Source: Piscirickettsiaceae bacterium
GTDB lineage: Bacteria; Pseudomonadota; Gammaproteobacteria; Nitrosococcales; Methylophagaceae
Reading direction: 5' to 3'
Length of the DNA: 64,000 nucleotides
Assembly: GCA_024685995.1 (NCBI GenBank)
Contig: JAIBDY010000006.1
Coordinates: forward strand, 1-64,000
In this document: one piece after another, positions 4,891 through 44,911 of the stretch
Position numbering within the stretch: the first letter of the stretch is position 1
Layout of the letters: each line of letters starts with the position of its first letter
Translations under genes and position numbers: made by a program
Notes under the pieces: generated by a model
What the model saw: the letters and a program-made list of their open reading frames with translations, nothing else
What the model was told of the DNA's origin: nothing
The model's database searches: none

Positions 4891-5715
4891 ATGACTAGCG
4901 TTGAATATCAGCGATTCAAGACCTTTCTAGAGCAGACCTGTGGCATCTTGCTCGGAGATGGGAAACAATATCTGATTGATAGTCGTTTGGCGAGACTGTT
5001 ACGGATGGAAAAAATCGCCTCCATAACTGCCTTATTGTCGCGGATAGAACAACCTAGTCAACATCGCTTAAGGGACGCGGTCATCAATGCAATGACAACC
5101 AATGAAACATCATGGTTTCGTGACCAAAGTCCATTTACAGTATTAAAGCAGGTCGTTTTTCCCGAGTTAGCAAAGCAGGGCAAAGCGGGGATACGCGTCT
5201 GGTCTGCAGCCTGCTCATCGGGTCAGGAGCCTTATACGATCAGTATCACATTGAATGAGTATCTTGCAGCAATGCCTCATAGTAAGCTTCGTCAGATGCA
5301 AGTCATTGCCAGCGATATATCGGCCAGTATGATCGAGCAAGCGAAATCAGGCCAATACGATGGCCGAGTCTTAGCGCGAGGTTTAACCACGCAGCAAAGA
5401 CAATATTATTTCACTGCCGTTGGTGGTGATGACTGGGCGATCAACGATGATATCAAGCGTCGCGTCAGTTTTATGGAGCAGAACCTGTTGGGCAGTTATA
5501 GTCATTTAGGGACATTTGATATTATTTTTTGTCGAAATGTCCTTATCTATTTCTCACAACAACGTAAAGCAGATATATTGCAACGGCTATCAGCAGCACT
5601 GAACCCCGGCGGTTACTTATTTTTGGGAGCTTCTGAAACCCCAATGGGCTATAGCGAGCAGTTTGAAATGATCCGCAGTGCAATTGGCGTCTTTTTTCGG
5701 CTCAAGCAAGACTAA
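4891..5715 (+). CDS. cheR: Chemotaxis protein methyltransferase CheR
   Basis: 274-residue S-adenosylmethionine-dependent methyltransferase that methylates glutamates of chemoreceptors. The N-terminal all-alpha CheR domain (about 1-75, including NAMTTNETSWFRD) is followed by the Rossmann methyltransferase domain with the SAM motif VWSAACSSGQEPYT and the FCRNVLIYF motif. Length is normal. It stands alone here, about 9 kb ahead of flgB, whereas in many polar flagellates cheV-cheR sit next to flgB. Its stop overlaps the convergent DUF4126 gene by 4 bases. The receptors at 43.0 and 46.8 kb are possible substrates. Confidence 0.95.
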   Translation: MTSVEYQRFKTFLEQTCGILLGDGKQYLIDSRLARLLRMEKIASITALLSRIEQPSQHRLRDAVINAMTTNETSWFRDQSPFTVLKQVVFPELAKQGKAGIRVWSAACSSGQEPYTISITLNEYLAAMPHSKLRQMQVIASDISASMIEQAKSGQYDGRVLARGLTTQQRQYYFTAVGGDDWAINDDIKRRVSFMEQNLLGSYSHLGTFDIIFCRNVLIYFSQQRKADILQRLSAALNPGGYLFLGASETPMGYSEQFEMIRSAIGVFFRLKQD

Positions 5716-39484: not shown

Positions 39485-39500
39485 TGGCACGGTCTCTGCA
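39485..39500 (+). promoter_or_regulatory. Sigma-54 promoter of the STAS-CheA-like operon
   Basis: TGGCACGGTCTCTGCA matches the consensus TGGCACG-N4-TTGCA at all but one position, with GG (39486-39487) and GC (39498-39499) spaced by 10 bases. It lies 42 bases past fliJ. The next gene starts at 39714, so the transcript would have a leader of about 200 bases. Confidence 0.85.
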
Positions 39501-39713
39501 TTAAAGCCTATAAGTAGAGAATATCACGCCATTTGGTTAAATCAACATAAAGGCCTGTAACAACGATATAACAAGGTGTGACAGAGGATTTAGACTGGTG
39601 TGCGTGCTTTAATTTAGCGATAAGCGGTAAGCTAAAACGGCAATTATTAGCCTCATCGCTACCCATGTATTTCGACGTATGATGCAATATAGAGGTCAAA
39701 AGTAAAATAAATC
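39501..39713 (+). other. Long untranslated leader with nested inverted repeats
   Basis: No convincing gene lies here. TAGCGAT (39615-39621) pairs with ATCGCTA (39655-39661), and inside that GCTAA (39631-39635) pairs with TTAGC (39647-39651), giving a nested hairpin about 50 bases ahead of the STAS start codon. No match to a riboswitch consensus I know was seen. A regulatory leader or a remnant of an inserted sequence are both possible. Confidence 0.45.
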
Positions 39714-40007
39714 ATGGCAAGTGCGTTAATACAATTTGACAGCGTGTTGGGGAGGACAGAGTTAACAGCGCTGTACCCAAGACTGCTGTCCGCTTTGCTT
39801 GAGGATCAGCCTCTTGTGCTTGAGTGTGGGCAAATAACGCAAGTTGATACGGCCGCAATACAACTGCTTTATGCCTTTTCTCAACAAGCAGAAATTCATG
39901 GTAAGCGACTGCAATGGTTGCAAGTGAGCGAGGTCTTTTTGCAAGCAGTACGTTTATTGGGGTTAAGGGATTTTCTGGCACAGATAAGGACTGAAGATGT
40001 TATCTGA
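39714..40007 (+). CDS. STAS-domain protein
   Basis: 97-residue single STAS domain (anti-sigma factor antagonist fold). The central strand-loop reads LECGQITQVDTAAIQLLYAF: the usual D-S-S-G phospho-site region is D-T-A-A here, so the serine phosphorylated in SpoIIAA-type proteins appears to be missing. STAS proteins occur in some chemosensory gene sets; their role there is not settled. It is the first gene of a tightly coupled operon, overlapping the CheA-like gene by 11 bases. The ribosome binding site is weak, with GAGG too far upstream. Confidence 0.8.
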   Translation: MASALIQFDSVLGRTELTALYPRLLSALLEDQPLVLECGQITQVDTAAIQLLYAFSQQAEIHGKRLQWLQVSEVFLQAVRLLGLRDFLAQIRTEDVI

Positions 40008-41763
40008 TACTTTGGCTAGCCCAAACAGTTTTGTTGTGCAAAGTGTCGCTAATCTTGATCTGATGGTCAAGGCATTATCAAGCGAAGACAGGACCTTGGA
40101 CAAGGATTCATCTTTTATTCTCGAAAAAGTCAAAGACGGTGCAACGGCTTTGGGTTTAATGTTTGTCACCGAGCTCGCTACGGATTTAGAAAGGGTGTTG
40201 CTGGATATTCAATTACACCAACGGCCACTTACGCCAGCTGTTCGTGCGGCTTTGTTGTCGGTCATAACTGTATTGAAAGACAGTCTGCTGGATAATGACC
40301 AAGCGGATAAATCGAATGCAAAAAGCACAAACGACGTCAATCCGATCAAGCAACACATCAGCGCGCAGCACAACGATAATGACAAGGCGATGCCAGTGGG
40401 GCTGCGAACCTGGGATATTGATTTCAAACCGTTATCGACCTATCTACACTCGGGCGGCGAACCGCTGGCTATTTTCCAGGCGTTGGCGATTCTGGGTGAT
40501 CTTAATGTTGAGGTTGACCAATCTGACTTACCGCTATTTTCGGAATTAGACCCTGAACAATGTTATTTATCATGGCATTTAAACTTAACCAGTTATGCCA
40601 CTCAACAAGACATCGAAGATATTTTTAAGCGTTATCAGGCCGAGGAGCAAATGGTCATCACGCGACCGGAAAATACGGTATTGCCGTTATCGATGCTAGC
40701 CCACGCACCAGCACAAACCGACAAGCTTGATATGCTGCAAAGCTTGCTGTTAGAGCTAACGCAGACGCAGCAGACATTGCTCCAGATAGGCGAACACTTT
40801 AACCCAGCACTATGGCCAAAATTTGACGCCAATCTCACGCAATTAGTAGCGCATACCCACGCCATTGAGGACGTGGTTGGTCAAATGAGAATGTGGCCAA
40901 TACATCACCTTTACCAGCATGTGAAGTTAGTGATTGATGCGTTAGCCGAAACGCTAGGCAAGAAAGTCGAACTGATGCTATCAGGTGGCGAGTTGGAAGT
41001 AGATAAAGCTATTTTAGAGAAAGTCATCGATCCTGTCGTGCAACTGGTTACTATTGCTCTTGAGCATGACAATGTTGATGACGTAACAGTGCAATTAACA
41101 TGCACGCTTCAAGATGGATACATCGTCATCGTCATATTGTGTTCTGGTACCAGTGCCGGGATAGCCGGACCTTTGCCAGAGAACGGGGCGTCAACGTTTA
41201 CTATTGAGACTGTCAAAAAAGCGATTGGCAGTTTGAACGGCAATATTAAGATGGACTCAATACCTGAACAAGGCGTGATGTTCACGGTCTCTGTACCGCA
41301 ACAACACTGGATCATGCAGGGACAAGGGATCATGGTGGGTGACGAACAGTATATTTTGCCGCTGTCGTTGATAATTGAGTCGCTAGAAATCGCGCCCGAT
41401 CAACTAAAAAATATTGCCGGGAAAGGGGACTTATATTTATTTGATGATGCCTATATTCCCGTCTTCTCGCTGACACAATTACTCGATCTCGCAACGTGGA
41501 AACGCCCAGCACAACAGCTCCTGATCATCATGGATATTGCCGGTCAAAAAATAGGCATAGTCGTGGATGAATTATTAAGCCAACAACGTGTCGTGGTAAC
41601 ACATTTAGAAAGGCATTACTGTCAGGTAAAAGGCTTTTATGGTGCGAGTATCATGGGGGATGACTCCGCGGCATTGGTGCTCAATATTGCGGCGTTAATC
41701 GAACACCATACACGGCCTTTTGATGATAAGGCTACGTTAAATGACGTCGAGGTGCGCTCATGA
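39997..41763 (+). CDS. Degenerate CheA-like protein (predicted pseudokinase)
   Basis: 588-residue protein with CheA domain order but without kinase residues. P1-like helical bundle (1-100): the His-box reads E-K-V-K-D-G-A, with E43 where the phosphorylated histidine should be. P2-like region (about 137-225) begins TWDIDFKPLSTYLHSGGEPL, as in many CheA proteins. P3 is short (about 240-265). The ATP-binding P4 region (about 295-435) keeps the QMRMWPI entry motif and GKKVELMLSGGELEVDKAIL, but the N-box is LVTIALEH (asparagine replaced by I353), the G1 D-x-G is C-S-G (382-384), and no G2 glycine loop or lid is present. The C-terminal CheW-like P5 domain (436-575) looks intact. ATGA overlap with cheW. 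Confidence 0.88.
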   Translation: MLSDTLASPNSFVVQSVANLDLMVKALSSEDRTLDKDSSFILEKVKDGATALGLMFVTELATDLERVLLDIQLHQRPLTPAVRAALLSVITVLKDSLLDNDQADKSNAKSTNDVNPIKQHISAQHNDNDKAMPVGLRTWDIDFKPLSTYLHSGGEPLAIFQALAILGDLNVEVDQSDLPLFSELDPEQCYLSWHLNLTSYATQQDIEDIFKRYQAEEQMVITRPENTVLPLSMLAHAPAQTDKLDMLQSLLLELTQTQQTLLQIGEHFNPALWPKFDANLTQLVAHTHAIEDVVGQMRMWPIHHLYQHVKLVIDALAETLGKKVELMLSGGELEVDKAILEKVIDPVVQLVTIALEHDNVDDVTVQLTCTLQDGYIVIVILCSGTSAGIAGPLPENGASTFTIETVKKAIGSLNGNIKMDSIPEQGVMFTVSVPQQHWIMQGQGIMVGDEQYILPLSLIIESLEIAPDQLKNIAGKGDLYLFDDAYIPVFSLTQLLDLATWKRPAQQLLIIMDIAGQKIGIVVDELLSQQRVVVTHLERHYCQVKGFYGASIMGDDSAALVLNIAALIEHHTRPFDDKATLNDVEVRS

Positions 41764-42245
41764 TAGAGGAGTTAAACGCCCCGCCCTTGTGTTCAACAAG
41801 CGATGCCTATTTGATATTAAATTTAGGCGAAGCGGTGTTTGGTATTGAGGTCTCGAAGATCATAGAAATGAGAAATTGGCTTGCTGTCACACGCTTACCA
41901 AAAACCCCCGATTATGTCTGTGGACTACGCAATGTGCGTGGCAATATTGTGCCCATCATGGACTTACGGCAGCGCTTGGCATTGGCTAAAAAGGCGCATG
42001 ACAAGACGACTGTGGTTATTTTGCTGCAAGTCAACGATAAAGCAAGACAAACTACGAAGGTCATGGGCCTTGCCGTTGATGCCGTATCCGATGCTTTGCC
42101 AATAGCATCAAACAGCATCAAAGCCGCACCAGATTTCGGACAACAGCTGAATACAAGTTATATCAAAGGCTTATCAGAAATAAACGGTAATCTGGTGACG
42201 TTATTAGACACCGATATGCTATTTAGCATTGATGCCTTAGTGTAG
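41760..42245 (+). CDS. cheW: CheW-like chemotaxis coupling protein
   Basis: 161-residue single-domain CheW with typical features: YLILNLGEAVFGIEVSKIIE at the N-terminus, VRGNIVPIMDLRQRLAL in the middle and the GLAVDAVSDAL and IKGLSEINGNLVTLLD segments toward the end. CheW links receptors to the P5 domain of CheA. It overlaps the CheA-like gene by 4 bases, so it probably pairs with that protein rather than with a canonical CheA encoded elsewhere, though it could serve both. Confidence 0.92.
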   Translation: MIEELNAPPLCSTSDAYLILNLGEAVFGIEVSKIIEMRNWLAVTRLPKTPDYVCGLRNVRGNIVPIMDLRQRLALAKKAHDKTTVVILLQVNDKARQTTKVMGLAVDAVSDALPIASNSIKAAPDFGQQLNTSYIKGLSEINGNLVTLLDTDMLFSIDALV

Positions 42246-42269: not shown

Positions 42270-43019
42270 GTGACAAGGGTAATCGCAATTATGAATCAGC
42301 AAGCACAAGTGGGGAAAACGACACTGGCGTTGGGTTTGGCTTATGCTTTAGCGCGTAAAGGTCAGAGCGTGTTAGCGATTGATTTAGACCCCGCAAGTCG
42401 ACTAACAAGCTTGTGCGGTATACCGTCGTCAACGAGGGGTATAGATAAAGTGTTGTTAGAGGGCTCGCCTTTATTGCAAGTAAAAACGACCTTAGCAGCG
42501 GGTTTTGATGTGGTGCCTTCAGGGACTCAGTTAATAGCCTATGAACAGCGTGAGGGAGATGAGATGCACCGAGCTTACCGTTTAAAACAAGCGATAGAAA
42601 CACTGGATCAGCAAGATTTTATTCTCATCGACTGCACTAGCAAGCCAGGACTGTTAACAATGAGTGCCATGTTTGCGGCAGATGAAGTGTTAATACCAAC
42701 GACGAGTAGCTACCTTTCTTTACAAGGTTTGGTGCGTGTTATTCAATTATTTAAACGCTTGAAACTGACCTCAACAAGCAAAAAAATATGGTTAACCTTG
42801 ACTCAAGGAAGGGCCGATAATCCAGTGGCAGAAGAGGTTAAGTGTAAGTTATTGCATTATTTTCCGGGTCGAGTATTCAATACATCGATAAGGCATGATG
42901 AGACCTTGACTGCAAACCAGCATCAGAATGAAGCCATGGTTGACTATCAACAAGATAGTATGGGGGCTGAGGACTACTTCTCGCTCGCTCAAGATATGAT
43001 AGAAGGGAGAGTCAGCTAA
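42270..43019 (+). CDS. ParA/Soj-like ATPase with altered Walker A
   Basis: 249-residue ParA/MinD-type P-loop protein starting at GTG 42270, which gives the expected family N-terminus MTRVIAIMNQ. The Walker A loop reads N-Q-Q-A-Q-V-G-K-T-T: the P-loop lysine (K16) is kept, but the signature lysine of the deviant KGGVGKT motif is Q11 and the two glycines are A and Q. IDLDPAS and FILIDCTSKPGL (Walker B) follow, with C-terminal basic segment TSIRHDE. ParC-type ATPases in Vibrio place chemotaxis arrays at the pole, and a similar positioning role here is inferred. It lies 24 bases after cheW and shares a base with the next start. Confidence 0.85.
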   Translation: MTRVIAIMNQQAQVGKTTLALGLAYALARKGQSVLAIDLDPASRLTSLCGIPSSTRGIDKVLLEGSPLLQVKTTLAAGFDVVPSGTQLIAYEQREGDEMHRAYRLKQAIETLDQQDFILIDCTSKPGLLTMSAMFAADEVLIPTTSSYLSLQGLVRVIQLFKRLKLTSTSKKIWLTLTQGRADNPVAEEVKCKLLHYFPGRVFNTSIRHDETLTANQHQNEAMVDYQQDSMGAEDYFSLAQDMIEGRVS

Positions 43020-44911
43020 TGGCTGAAAAGACAACGCTCACACCACAATTGCCAGAGGCAGAATCTAAAAAACGAACTCGGACGCGATATAATCTTGCGT
43101 CATCGATGGTAAAGCAGAAAGGTAGCAAAACGACATTAGAAATCGTAGAACACAGTTTTGCTAAATTGATCGAACAAGGTGAGCTCTTAACCGTTCGCTT
43201 TTTCGAACGACTGTTATCTGAACACCCCGATCTTGCGCCTTTATTTAACGGCGTGTCATTAGATGGTCAACAAAAGAAATTTTTTGCATCGTTGGTGTTG
43301 ATTGTACAAAGCTTGCGTCAACCTGACGTATTGGCTGATTATTTACGAGGTTTAGGTGCAAGACATCAACATTATGGTGTCAAAGCTCGATACTACCCGT
43401 TAATGATAGAAAACTTGCTGGCGGTCATGGCCGAATTATCCGGCAGCGAATGGACTGCCGATGTAGCACAAGCTTGGCAAGAAACCCTTAGCGAAATCAC
43501 GGCCACGATGATGGCCTCCTCTGACCGAGACGAAGCGATAACCGACCCGCACAGCGAACAAAGGTCTGAGCCAATAGCGGCTGATACCGAGGCATCAGCA
43601 AGCCCAGAGACCGAACTCGTCCAGTTACGAGGCTCGGTGGATGAATATCAAGCTCAGTTATTGGCAATAGAAAAAATAATGGCCGTAGCCAGCTTTGATA
43701 TGACAGGCAGTATACTGGATGCAAATGACCTTTTCTCAACCTTGATGGGCTATGAAAAGGCGGCACTCATCGGACAGTCGCACCATCACTTACTCAAAGA
43801 AGGGCAGAATTACGTCGCATTATGGGAATGTCTCAATCAAGGCGAAGGACAAGCAGGGGAGTTCCAGTGGCGACGTAGTGATGGCACGTTTGTGTCAGTT
43901 CAAGCCAGTTATCACGTTATCTTAGACGATGATAAAAGGCCATTGAAAGTGGTTTGTCATATGAGTCCGATGACAGGTATGAAGCTCGCTCAGGGTGCCG
44001 TCGAGGCGCTGTTATCACAAGCATCTAGTGTGATGAAATCGGTATCTAAGGGAAATTTTACGCAAAAAATAGAAGGGATCTATGATGGCAGTTTAGCCGT
44101 CTTACAAACGGCAATCAACGATGCGATTGATAATCTTGCCACGATACTTAAGCAAACACACAAAACTGCAGCCAATATCAATATTTCGGCCACAGAAACA
44201 GTAAAAGACATTATTGATTTAAGTACACGAATAGATCAACAAGCAGCCTTAGTCGAGCAGACAGCTTCAACACTAGCGCGTTTAGCCATTGATAAACAGC
44301 AAAGCACTGTGAATGTCGACCCAATCCAACAATGGGTACTGGATGTGCAAGGGCAGTTGGAAACCAGTCGGTCGCTAATGGAACAATTGATAACAGAGAC
44401 GACGGTATTGATGCCGTCTTATTTCGGTAAAACGGAGACCATCAATGAGCTTGATGATATTGCTTTTCAAATCAATTTGTTGGCATTGAATGCCGCTGTT
44501 GAGGCCGCGCGAGCAGGCGTGCACGGTCGTGGCTTTGCACTGATTTCAACCGAGTTGAAAAATTTAACACATCGCGCAGCCGCCATGGTCAGGGAGATAA
44601 AGGTAGACGGAATTGAAGGTGAACAAAAAGTGCATTCAAACCTGATATTAATGAAAGAGAGCGACCAAAACTTGGAGCAGCTCATCAATAACGCGGCACA
44701 CCTTCAACATAGCCGTGCCCAACTGAAGATATCAGAGCATGGACAAGGGCTTAATACAGATCAAATTAGCCAGATGGTTAAGCAGTTGAGCGAAATGATG
44801 CAACGCAATGTGCCATTTGTAGATAAAGCGGTATCGATGAGCCAATTTTTAGACGAGCAAAATAGAACATTACAGGAGCTTGTGGATTTCTTTGAATTTG
44901 GGAGGGAGTAA
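43019..44911 (+). CDS. Soluble globin-PAS chemoreceptor
   Basis: 630-residue cytoplasmic methyl-accepting protein without membrane segments. A flavohemoglobin-type globin domain (about 40-165) has FFERLLSEHPDLAPLFN and a proximal-histidine region GARHQHYGVKARYYP (H116); phenylalanine replaces the B10 tyrosine of Hmp-type globins. A PAS domain (about 205-320) follows, then a HAMP-like linker and the signalling hairpin with tip [20 protein letters not shown] at about 481-500. Heme binding, and so O2 or NO sensing, is inferred. It starts on the last base of the ParA-like stop (TAATG). The signalling coils away from the tip are more divergent than usual. Confidence 0.88.
   Translation: MAEKTTLTPQLPEAESKKRTRTRYNLASSMVKQKGSKTTLEIVEHSFAKLIEQGELLTVRFFERLLSEHPDLAPLFNGVSLDGQQKKFFASLVLIVQSLRQPDVLADYLRGLGARHQHYGVKARYYPLMIENLLAVMAELSGSEWTADVAQAWQETLSEITATMMASSDRDEAITDPHSEQRSEPIAADTEASASPETELVQLRGSVDEYQAQLLAIEKIMAVASFDMTGSILDANDLFSTLMGYEKAALIGQSHHHLLKEGQNYVALWECLNQGEGQAGEFQWRRSDGTFVSVQASYHVILDDDKRPLKVVCHMSPMTGMKLAQGAVEALLSQASSVMKSVSKGNFTQKIEGIYDGSLAVLQTAINDAIDNLATILKQTHKTAANINISATETVKDIIDLSTRIDQQAALVEQTASTLARLAIDKQQSTVNVDPIQQWVLDVQGQLETSRSLMEQLITETTVLMPSYFGKTETINELDDIAFQINLLALNAAVEAARAGVHGRGFALISTELKNLTHRAAAMVREIKVDGIEGEQKVHSNLILMKESDQNLEQLINNAAHLQHSRAQLKISEHGQGLNTDQISQMVKQLSEMMQRNVPFVDKAVSMSQFLDEQNRTLQELVDFFEFGRE

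Follow-up and report, generated by a model that had tools for sequence, protein, structure and literature searches.

The window, the 64,000-nucleotide stretch of DNA analyzed here, encodes a kinase-dead homolog of CheA at positions 39997 to 41763 of the plus strand, on which all features described below lie. We refer to this protein as CheA*; its identification draws on the reading frame, Pfam matches, alignment, and an AlphaFold2 model. At the CheA* locus, the catalytic residues and the cognate CheY have been lost, while constraint on the P5 and P2-like domains has been retained, as have CheW, a receptor, a STAS protein, and a promoter. We consider it rather probable that CheA* is a phosphorylation-independent array adaptor that is coupled to the STAS protein and that descends from an F7-like CheA.

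Catalytic boxes and predicted folds of CheA*

The coding sequence is a single uninterrupted frame of 588 amino acids that begins with ATG at 39997 and ends with TGA at 41761-41763, exactly the boundaries given in a preliminary description of this DNA. Across the same interval, the other two frames of that strand hold 42 and 40 stops. Pfam recognized the CheW domain of P5 (70.5 bits) and scored Hpt at 19 bits, below the cut-off of 24.6, with no match to H-kinase_dim or HATPase_c. When aligned with intact orthologs, the His-box HSIKGGAGTFG has become EKVKDGATALG (EKVKDG at 40123-40140), and the alignment contains no alternative histidine at the phospho-acceptor position. The N-box LVHLVRNSLDHGLE now reads VVQLVTIALEH, which corresponds to N353I (41053-41055), while DDGAG of the G1 box reads CSGTS, replacing D-D-G with C-S-G (41140-41148). 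The F/G2/lid region has been deleted, such that the stretch IFLPGFST..SGRGVGMDVV is missing, and G3 is degraded from GxGSTFTI to EQGVMFTV. The preliminary description had reported the EKVKDG His-box, the N-box isoleucine, the C-S-G, and the absent G2 loop, and all four were seen in the alignment. Among 55 intact relatives, every sequence that spans the His-box position (53 of 53) has the histidine, and all 55 have the asparagine and D-D-G. Because these residues are universal where covered, the changes in CheA* are not ordinary variation.

Judged by its sequence, CheA* is a homolog of CheA and not a CheA kinase. It has the C-terminal CheW-like P5 domain of such a kinase, and it has neither a phosphorylatable P1 histidine nor the N, G1, F, and G2 boxes in P4. 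It also differs from CheV, which combines a CheW domain with a receiver, since Pfam found no receiver domain in CheA*.

We built the AlphaFold2 model from a 56-sequence alignment (mean pLDDT, 83.3) and compared its domains with solved CheA structures using VIA-align; the alignment included intact relatives, and the retention of folds is a prediction rather than a measurement. Of the solved structures, E. coli CheA was closest. A pseudo-P1 domain (residues 1 to 126; 39997..40374), identified by fold and motif, forms an Hpt-like helical bundle without the phospho-histidine and matched CheA P1 (1i5n) with a Z of 17.0 and an rmsd of 2.3 Å over 122 residues. Alignment and model likewise define a pseudo-P4 (residues 299 to 436; 40891..41304) with a HATPase fold that lacks the N, G1, F, and G2 boxes; its core matched CheA P4 (1i58) with a Z of 17.9 and an rmsd of 1.7 Å over 126 of 175 residues. 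These two matches came from a fold comparison that had been suggested in the preliminary description, which also called P5 well preserved. Consistent with that view, P5 (residues 437 to 572; 41305..41712), for which the Pfam CheW match agrees with the fold, aligned to CheA P5 (4jpb) with a Z of 19.9 and an rmsd of 1.7 Å over 131 residues. The P3-like dimerization helices (residues 236 to 298; 40702..40890) comprise model helices 240-266 and 270-298 and are matched by E. coli CheA from residue 241 in phmmer, with H-kinase_dim scoring only 14.2 bits.

Model, structure match, and conservation delimit a P2-like domain (residues 132 to 226; 40390..40674) with a ferredoxin-like fold (pLDDT, 90.4). 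It matched CheA P2 in 1u0s (Z of 7.7, 2.3 Å over 73 residues) and in 1ffg (Z of 7.3, 2.1 Å over 67 residues, 19% identity). A Z of 7 to 8 is no better than that obtained with other ferredoxin folds, such as ribosomal S6, and the assignment to P2 therefore rests on position and fold. Searches of CheA* gave no match to the Pfam P2 models and no PDB match by sequence for this domain, and its 43 members yielded a single weak Pfam CheY-binding match. Thus the P1-to-P5 order proposed earlier stands as folds in the model, with the qualification that P2 is supported by its ferredoxin-like fold and not by a Pfam P2 match. Overall, CheA* is predicted by the model to keep the architecture of CheA as folds, without its chemistry.

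The flagellar locus and its relatives

The host assembly (G000; 1.84 Mb, 82% complete) carries CheA* within a flagellar operon in the order fliJ-STAS-CheA*-CheW-ParA-globin/PAS receptor-fliK. The STAS-domain protein (39714..40007; 97 amino acids; Pfam STAS_2, 50.7 bits) is encoded immediately upstream, its gene overlapping the start of CheA* by 11 bp. Downstream lie the cognate CheW (41760..42245; Pfam CheW, 102.7 bits) and a ParA/MinD-family ATPase (42270..43019; Pfam AAA_31, 117.7 bits) that is conserved in the locus and is a possible array positioning protein. The last gene of the module encodes a globin-PAS-HAMP chemoreceptor (43019..44911; Pfam Globin, PAS, and MCPsignal; Aer2-like by NCBIfam) with a CheA/CheW-binding tip that is recognizable in a tip alignment. 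Elsewhere, the same genome encodes an F6-type flagellar cluster that is complete, comprising CheA (L003, intact), CheY, CheZ, and CheB, and it also encodes a ChpA-like protein.

Upstream of the STAS-CheA* operon is a sigma-54-like promoter element, TGGCACGGTCTCTGCAT (39485..39501), which agrees with 11 of 12 consensus positions. The 17-mer TGGCAYGGTCTCTGCAT is near-invariant in nearly every member of the genus that has the locus, including degenerate G000, G011, and G016 as well as intact relatives, and the spacer around it is unalignable. Conservation upstream of the STAS gene, in the window and 18 relatives, extends to the spacer bases of the 17-mer. The element fits a sigma-54 promoter, and its conserved spacer bases suggest a role beyond the -24/-12 contacts. 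Rfam gave no match in the loci of three relatives or around the promoter-STAS spacer of the window. In about eleven relatives, an open reading frame of ~60 amino acids, ending in ...SGNxKAARM...RWxxTLQxYSDYLIRY, lies between the promoter and STAS (an intact copy is found, e.g., in L055 within 5070-5400); in the window, it is reduced to a degraded remnant, SGKLKRQLLASSLPMYFDV, at about 39572-39682.

Most of the genomes we compared are metagenome assemblies. An alignment of 13 orthologs was too variable throughout to provide a search query, and a closer set of six orthologs was usable. Most members of the genus and family have, at the same position, the order fliJ-STAS-CheY-CheA-CheW-ParA-MCP, with a full-length CheA of about 680 to 720 amino acids and intact boxes. 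Against this background, the 588-residue CheA* of G000, with its pseudo-P1 and all kinase boxes lost, is one of several degenerate forms. G010 encodes a protein of 581 amino acids in which STAS is fused in a clean frame where P1 was, G011 has a protein of 539 amino acids with no P1, and the CheA of G016 (583 amino acids) is also degenerate. In G035, 301 amino acids remain, consisting of the P2-like domain and P5 alone. G015 (563 amino acids) has P1 deleted and G2 mutated, and G024 has a mutated G2 and nothing else, leaving a partially damaged kinase.

Species relationships were taken from a FliG-FliH-FliI-FliJ tree. In this tree, G000, G010, G011, and G016 form one clade (UFBoot, 97), while G015 stands beside intact G005 (UFBoot, 100) and G035 beside intact G030 (UFBoot, 99). 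These placements indicate, from sequence, at least three independent losses of kinase function among these related marine bacteria: one in the four-species clade, one in G015, and one in G035. Even within the clade, the fate of P1 differs, being degenerate, deleted, or replaced by STAS. The losses seen in CheA* are common to, or repeated in, its relatives, which answers a question posed with the preliminary description.

Several other candidates were rejected as kinase-dead cases. G075, G402, and G061 have short frames at contig ends. In G197, the boxes are intact and the frame stops inside P5. G322 encodes a CheA with an intact His-box whose frame is broken by frameshifts; its F7-like STAS-CheY-CheA locus (L201, 5709-8430) has CheA in three frames, reflecting a recent pseudogene or sequencing error. 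Elsewhere, G023 carries a second cluster with CheA, two CheW, a receptor, ParA, and STAS (L064, contig C39, 5493-12307), possibly a duplicate F7-like system, and the L064 match carries one stop (TAA) inside. In G007, just a ParA-like gene is left between fliJ and fliK (L206, 3791-7326); STAS, CheY, CheA, CheW, and the receptor are gone from the locus, and the genome still has flagellar genes and an F6 CheA. Since G007 keeps ParA alone, this protein may serve a separate function.

Loss of the kinase was accompanied by loss of its response regulator in five of the six kinase-loss genomes. The cognate CheY, a protein of 120 amino acids encoded between STAS and CheA in intact loci, was present in every STAS-CheA gap examined in the genus and family where CheA is intact, and also in G015, the exception among the six. 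The outgroup G053, from another family, has no CheY at the locus and a STAS-CheA gap of 104 bp. In G000, G010, G011, G016, and G035, the gene was missing from the locus and absent genome-wide, the best CheY-like receiver having 32 to 39% identity; checked genomes that retain the gene have proteins 92 to 100% identical (92% in G015 and G005). The locus is contiguous and without N in all five CheY-less genomes, of which G010, G011, and G035 are 99% complete. In the CheY-less loci other than that of G010, the STAS and CheA* genes either overlap or are separated by no more than 15 bp. A stretch at the end of the P2-like domain, FEWVxDDC, is kept in G015 and altered in all five CheY-less proteins. 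This stretch may bind CheY, and its alteration disfavors CheY docking as the present role of the P2-like domain. The coordinated loss of CheY, the STAS partner, and the repeated independent losses had all gone unnoticed in the preliminary description.

Residual constraint and competing explanations

Conservation in intact lineages is highest for P1, P3, and P4 (82 to 85% mean identity) and lowest for the P2-like domain (67%). In the clade of G000, G010, G011, and G016, the P2-like domain and P5 are the most conserved (28 to 45%) and P1, P3, and P4 the least. We expressed domain rates on terminal branches, with the flagellar topology fixed, relative to flagellar proteins. Degenerate-clade rates exceeded this background 11- to 17-fold for P1, 9- to 15-fold for P4, and 5- to 8-fold for P3, compared with 4- to 9-fold for both the P2-like domain and P5; in intact lineages, they were 0- to 4-fold, mostly 0 to 3. 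Between G000 and G011, 43, 29, and 66% of first, second, and third codon positions differ in P5, and 45, 27, and 62% in the P2-like domain. For P1 of G000 and G016, the values are 62, 53, and 62%, against an unrelated null of about 72, 72, and 75%. From the unequal rates and codon positions, we infer that P1 and P4 are close to free and evolve near-neutrally, while the P2-like domain and P5 are still held by constraint. Open frames remain unbroken in the degenerate lineages. In the degenerate clade, drift has also affected CheW, ParA, and the receptor, including its tip, which is normally invariant.

These patterns are best explained if the ancestor was a second, F7-like CheA whose substrate was a dedicated CheY encoded alongside. 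Following loss of the CheY gene, the phospho-acceptor histidine and ATP-binding boxes would have decayed, with the protein retained as a structural adaptor. P5 would give CheA* a place in the ring that CheW and the receptor tips form, P3 would probably dimerize it, and pseudo-P1 together with the P2-like domain would offer a docking site. The most likely ligand of this site is the STAS protein, which is translated immediately ahead of CheA*. The receptor, with its globin and PAS domains, probably senses gas or redox; it would act by conformation and occupancy, and not by phosphotransfer, to control STAS availability or array placement. The order of events, array entry, dimerization, STAS binding, and any output of CheA* are what we infer here. 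The STAS protein is favored as the partner because the two are fused in G010 and their genes are tightly coupled in the other loci. The earlier proposal of a scaffold that can enter arrays without kinase activity is well supported by sequence and model: the catalytic elements are gone, P5, CheW, the receptor, and P3 (as a fold) remain, and relatives share or repeat the losses.

The main rival is that the locus is a relic in slow decay, an F7-like system that lost its CheY output and is now functionless, its deletion merely pending, with P5 and the P2-like domain slower for historical or folding reasons. We regard this explanation as unlikely, yet it has an appreciable claim. Every gene of the cluster is accelerated and the receptor tip degraded, as in decay, and the clean loss of all but ParA in G007 is what decay predicts; both count against an adaptor, as does the weak conservation of P3 in the clade. 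The degraded small frame between the promoter and STAS and the partially damaged kinase of G024 also fit a relic. Nevertheless, decay does not easily explain why long frames stay intact in several diverged species, why codon positions in P5 and the P2-like domain change unequally, why the promoter is conserved, or why the STAS fusion in G010 has a clean frame. Moreover, G010 retains the module after losing the F6 kinase and CheZ. That genome is 99% complete and has FliM and flagellin, and a genome search found no F6 CheA, CheZ, or CheV-like adaptor, leaving STAS-CheA*, CheW, and the receptor as the sole flagellum-linked chemosensory proteins found. Motility in G010 may differ from chemotaxis as usually understood. 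G009 and G012 have neither FliM nor flagellin, and the module is also missing from both.

It is improbable that the P2-like domain instead acts as a CheV-like sink or store by capturing the F6 CheY or CheB at the array. In known CheA proteins, CheY and CheB dock on P2 (PMC10782961), and the P2-like domain is kept in all degenerate forms, being one of the two domains left in G035; however, FEWVxDDC is kept in CheY-bearing G015 and altered in all five CheY-less proteins, and G010 lacks the F6 CheA and CheZ. Even less credit is due to a dominant-negative role, in which CheA* would enter F6 arrays or heterodimerize with the F6 CheA and lower its activity. The intact F6 CheA of G000 and the sharing of arrays by paralogous CheA proteins in Azospirillum (PMC6759762) would permit it, but CheA* has its own CheW and receptor and a diverged P3, and G010 keeps a homolog without an F6 CheA. 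The latter makes dilution of the F6 CheA unlikely as a general role. The preliminary description had suggested that CheA* dilutes or inhibits an active CheA; this is not supported as a general function, and CheA* descends from the F7-like system rather than from the motor-driving CheA. Finally, half of a split kinase acting in trans, for which R. sphaeroides CheA3/CheA4 is a precedent with a dead CheA3 HATPase region (PMC10782961, PMC6829392), is barely credible, as the locus holds no partner gene and CheA*, with both histidine and ATP site gone, can supply neither half.

Known chemosensory systems and implications

The F7-type CheA of gammaproteobacteria (PMC7184735) shares with the intact relatives of the locus the gene order STAS-cheY-cheA-cheW-aer2, the last gene being one for a PAS-type receptor in the relatives, and with the CheA* locus itself sequence homology from the P2-like domain to P5 and coexistence with an F6 system. 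In contrast to F7 clusters, the CheA* genome has lost the cognate CheY and all kinase boxes, and its locus has a ParA gene instead of cheR, cheD, and cheB and is inserted between fliJ and fliK. Compared with the F7 ancestral stage (PMC7184735), a single cheW was seen, and neither a second antagonist nor a phosphatase. An F7-type system of Shewanella has a connection to STAS/anti-sigma partner switching of RpoS (PMC9855816), an analogy that makes a STAS output plausible without being evidence for the CheA* locus.

The nearest precedent for CheA* is Rhodobacter sphaeroides CheA3 (PMC10782961, PMC6829392), which likewise has a nonfunctional ATPase region and degenerate inner domains together with a working P5. 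CheA3, however, works together with CheA4 and still has a P1 that can be phosphorylated, whereas CheA* has lost both the histidine and the ATP site. CheV and CheW adaptors resemble CheA* in being CheW-domain-based array adaptors without kinase activity, and the P2-like plus P5 form of G035 has a CheV-like architecture. CheV, however, has a receiver domain, whereas CheA* has pseudo-P1, P2-like, P3, and pseudo-P4 regions from CheA. The short CheA of E. coli (CheA-S) has no usable P1, but its P4 is still active, and the partner is phosphorylated in trans. It resembles the G015 form in missing a usable P1 and differs from CheA* by its active P4. In open-licence papers, we found no described case of a CheA homolog that lacks the ATP site and the histidine alike. 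A survey of 13,673 CheA sequences reported P1, P3, P4, and P5 in all of them and used the ATPase domain to recognize CheA (PMC10782961), so homologs without that domain would be missed.

Taken together, the findings suggest that an array has been reused without its normal phosphate signal or is being slowly discarded. More broadly, and only tentatively, the F7-like array of Methylophagaceae may have turned repeatedly into a phosphorylation-independent device, with receptors acting via a kinase-dead CheA on STAS and not on CheY, a generalization that we consider doubtful at present. Sister species form a natural series: it starts with an intact kinase, passes through stages in which CheY is lost and the kinase is dead, and ends with a P2-P5 remnant or with nothing left. 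This series lets one ask whether chemoreceptor arrays have a role when there is no kinase output, and by what routes a second chemosensory system is lost or put to new use.
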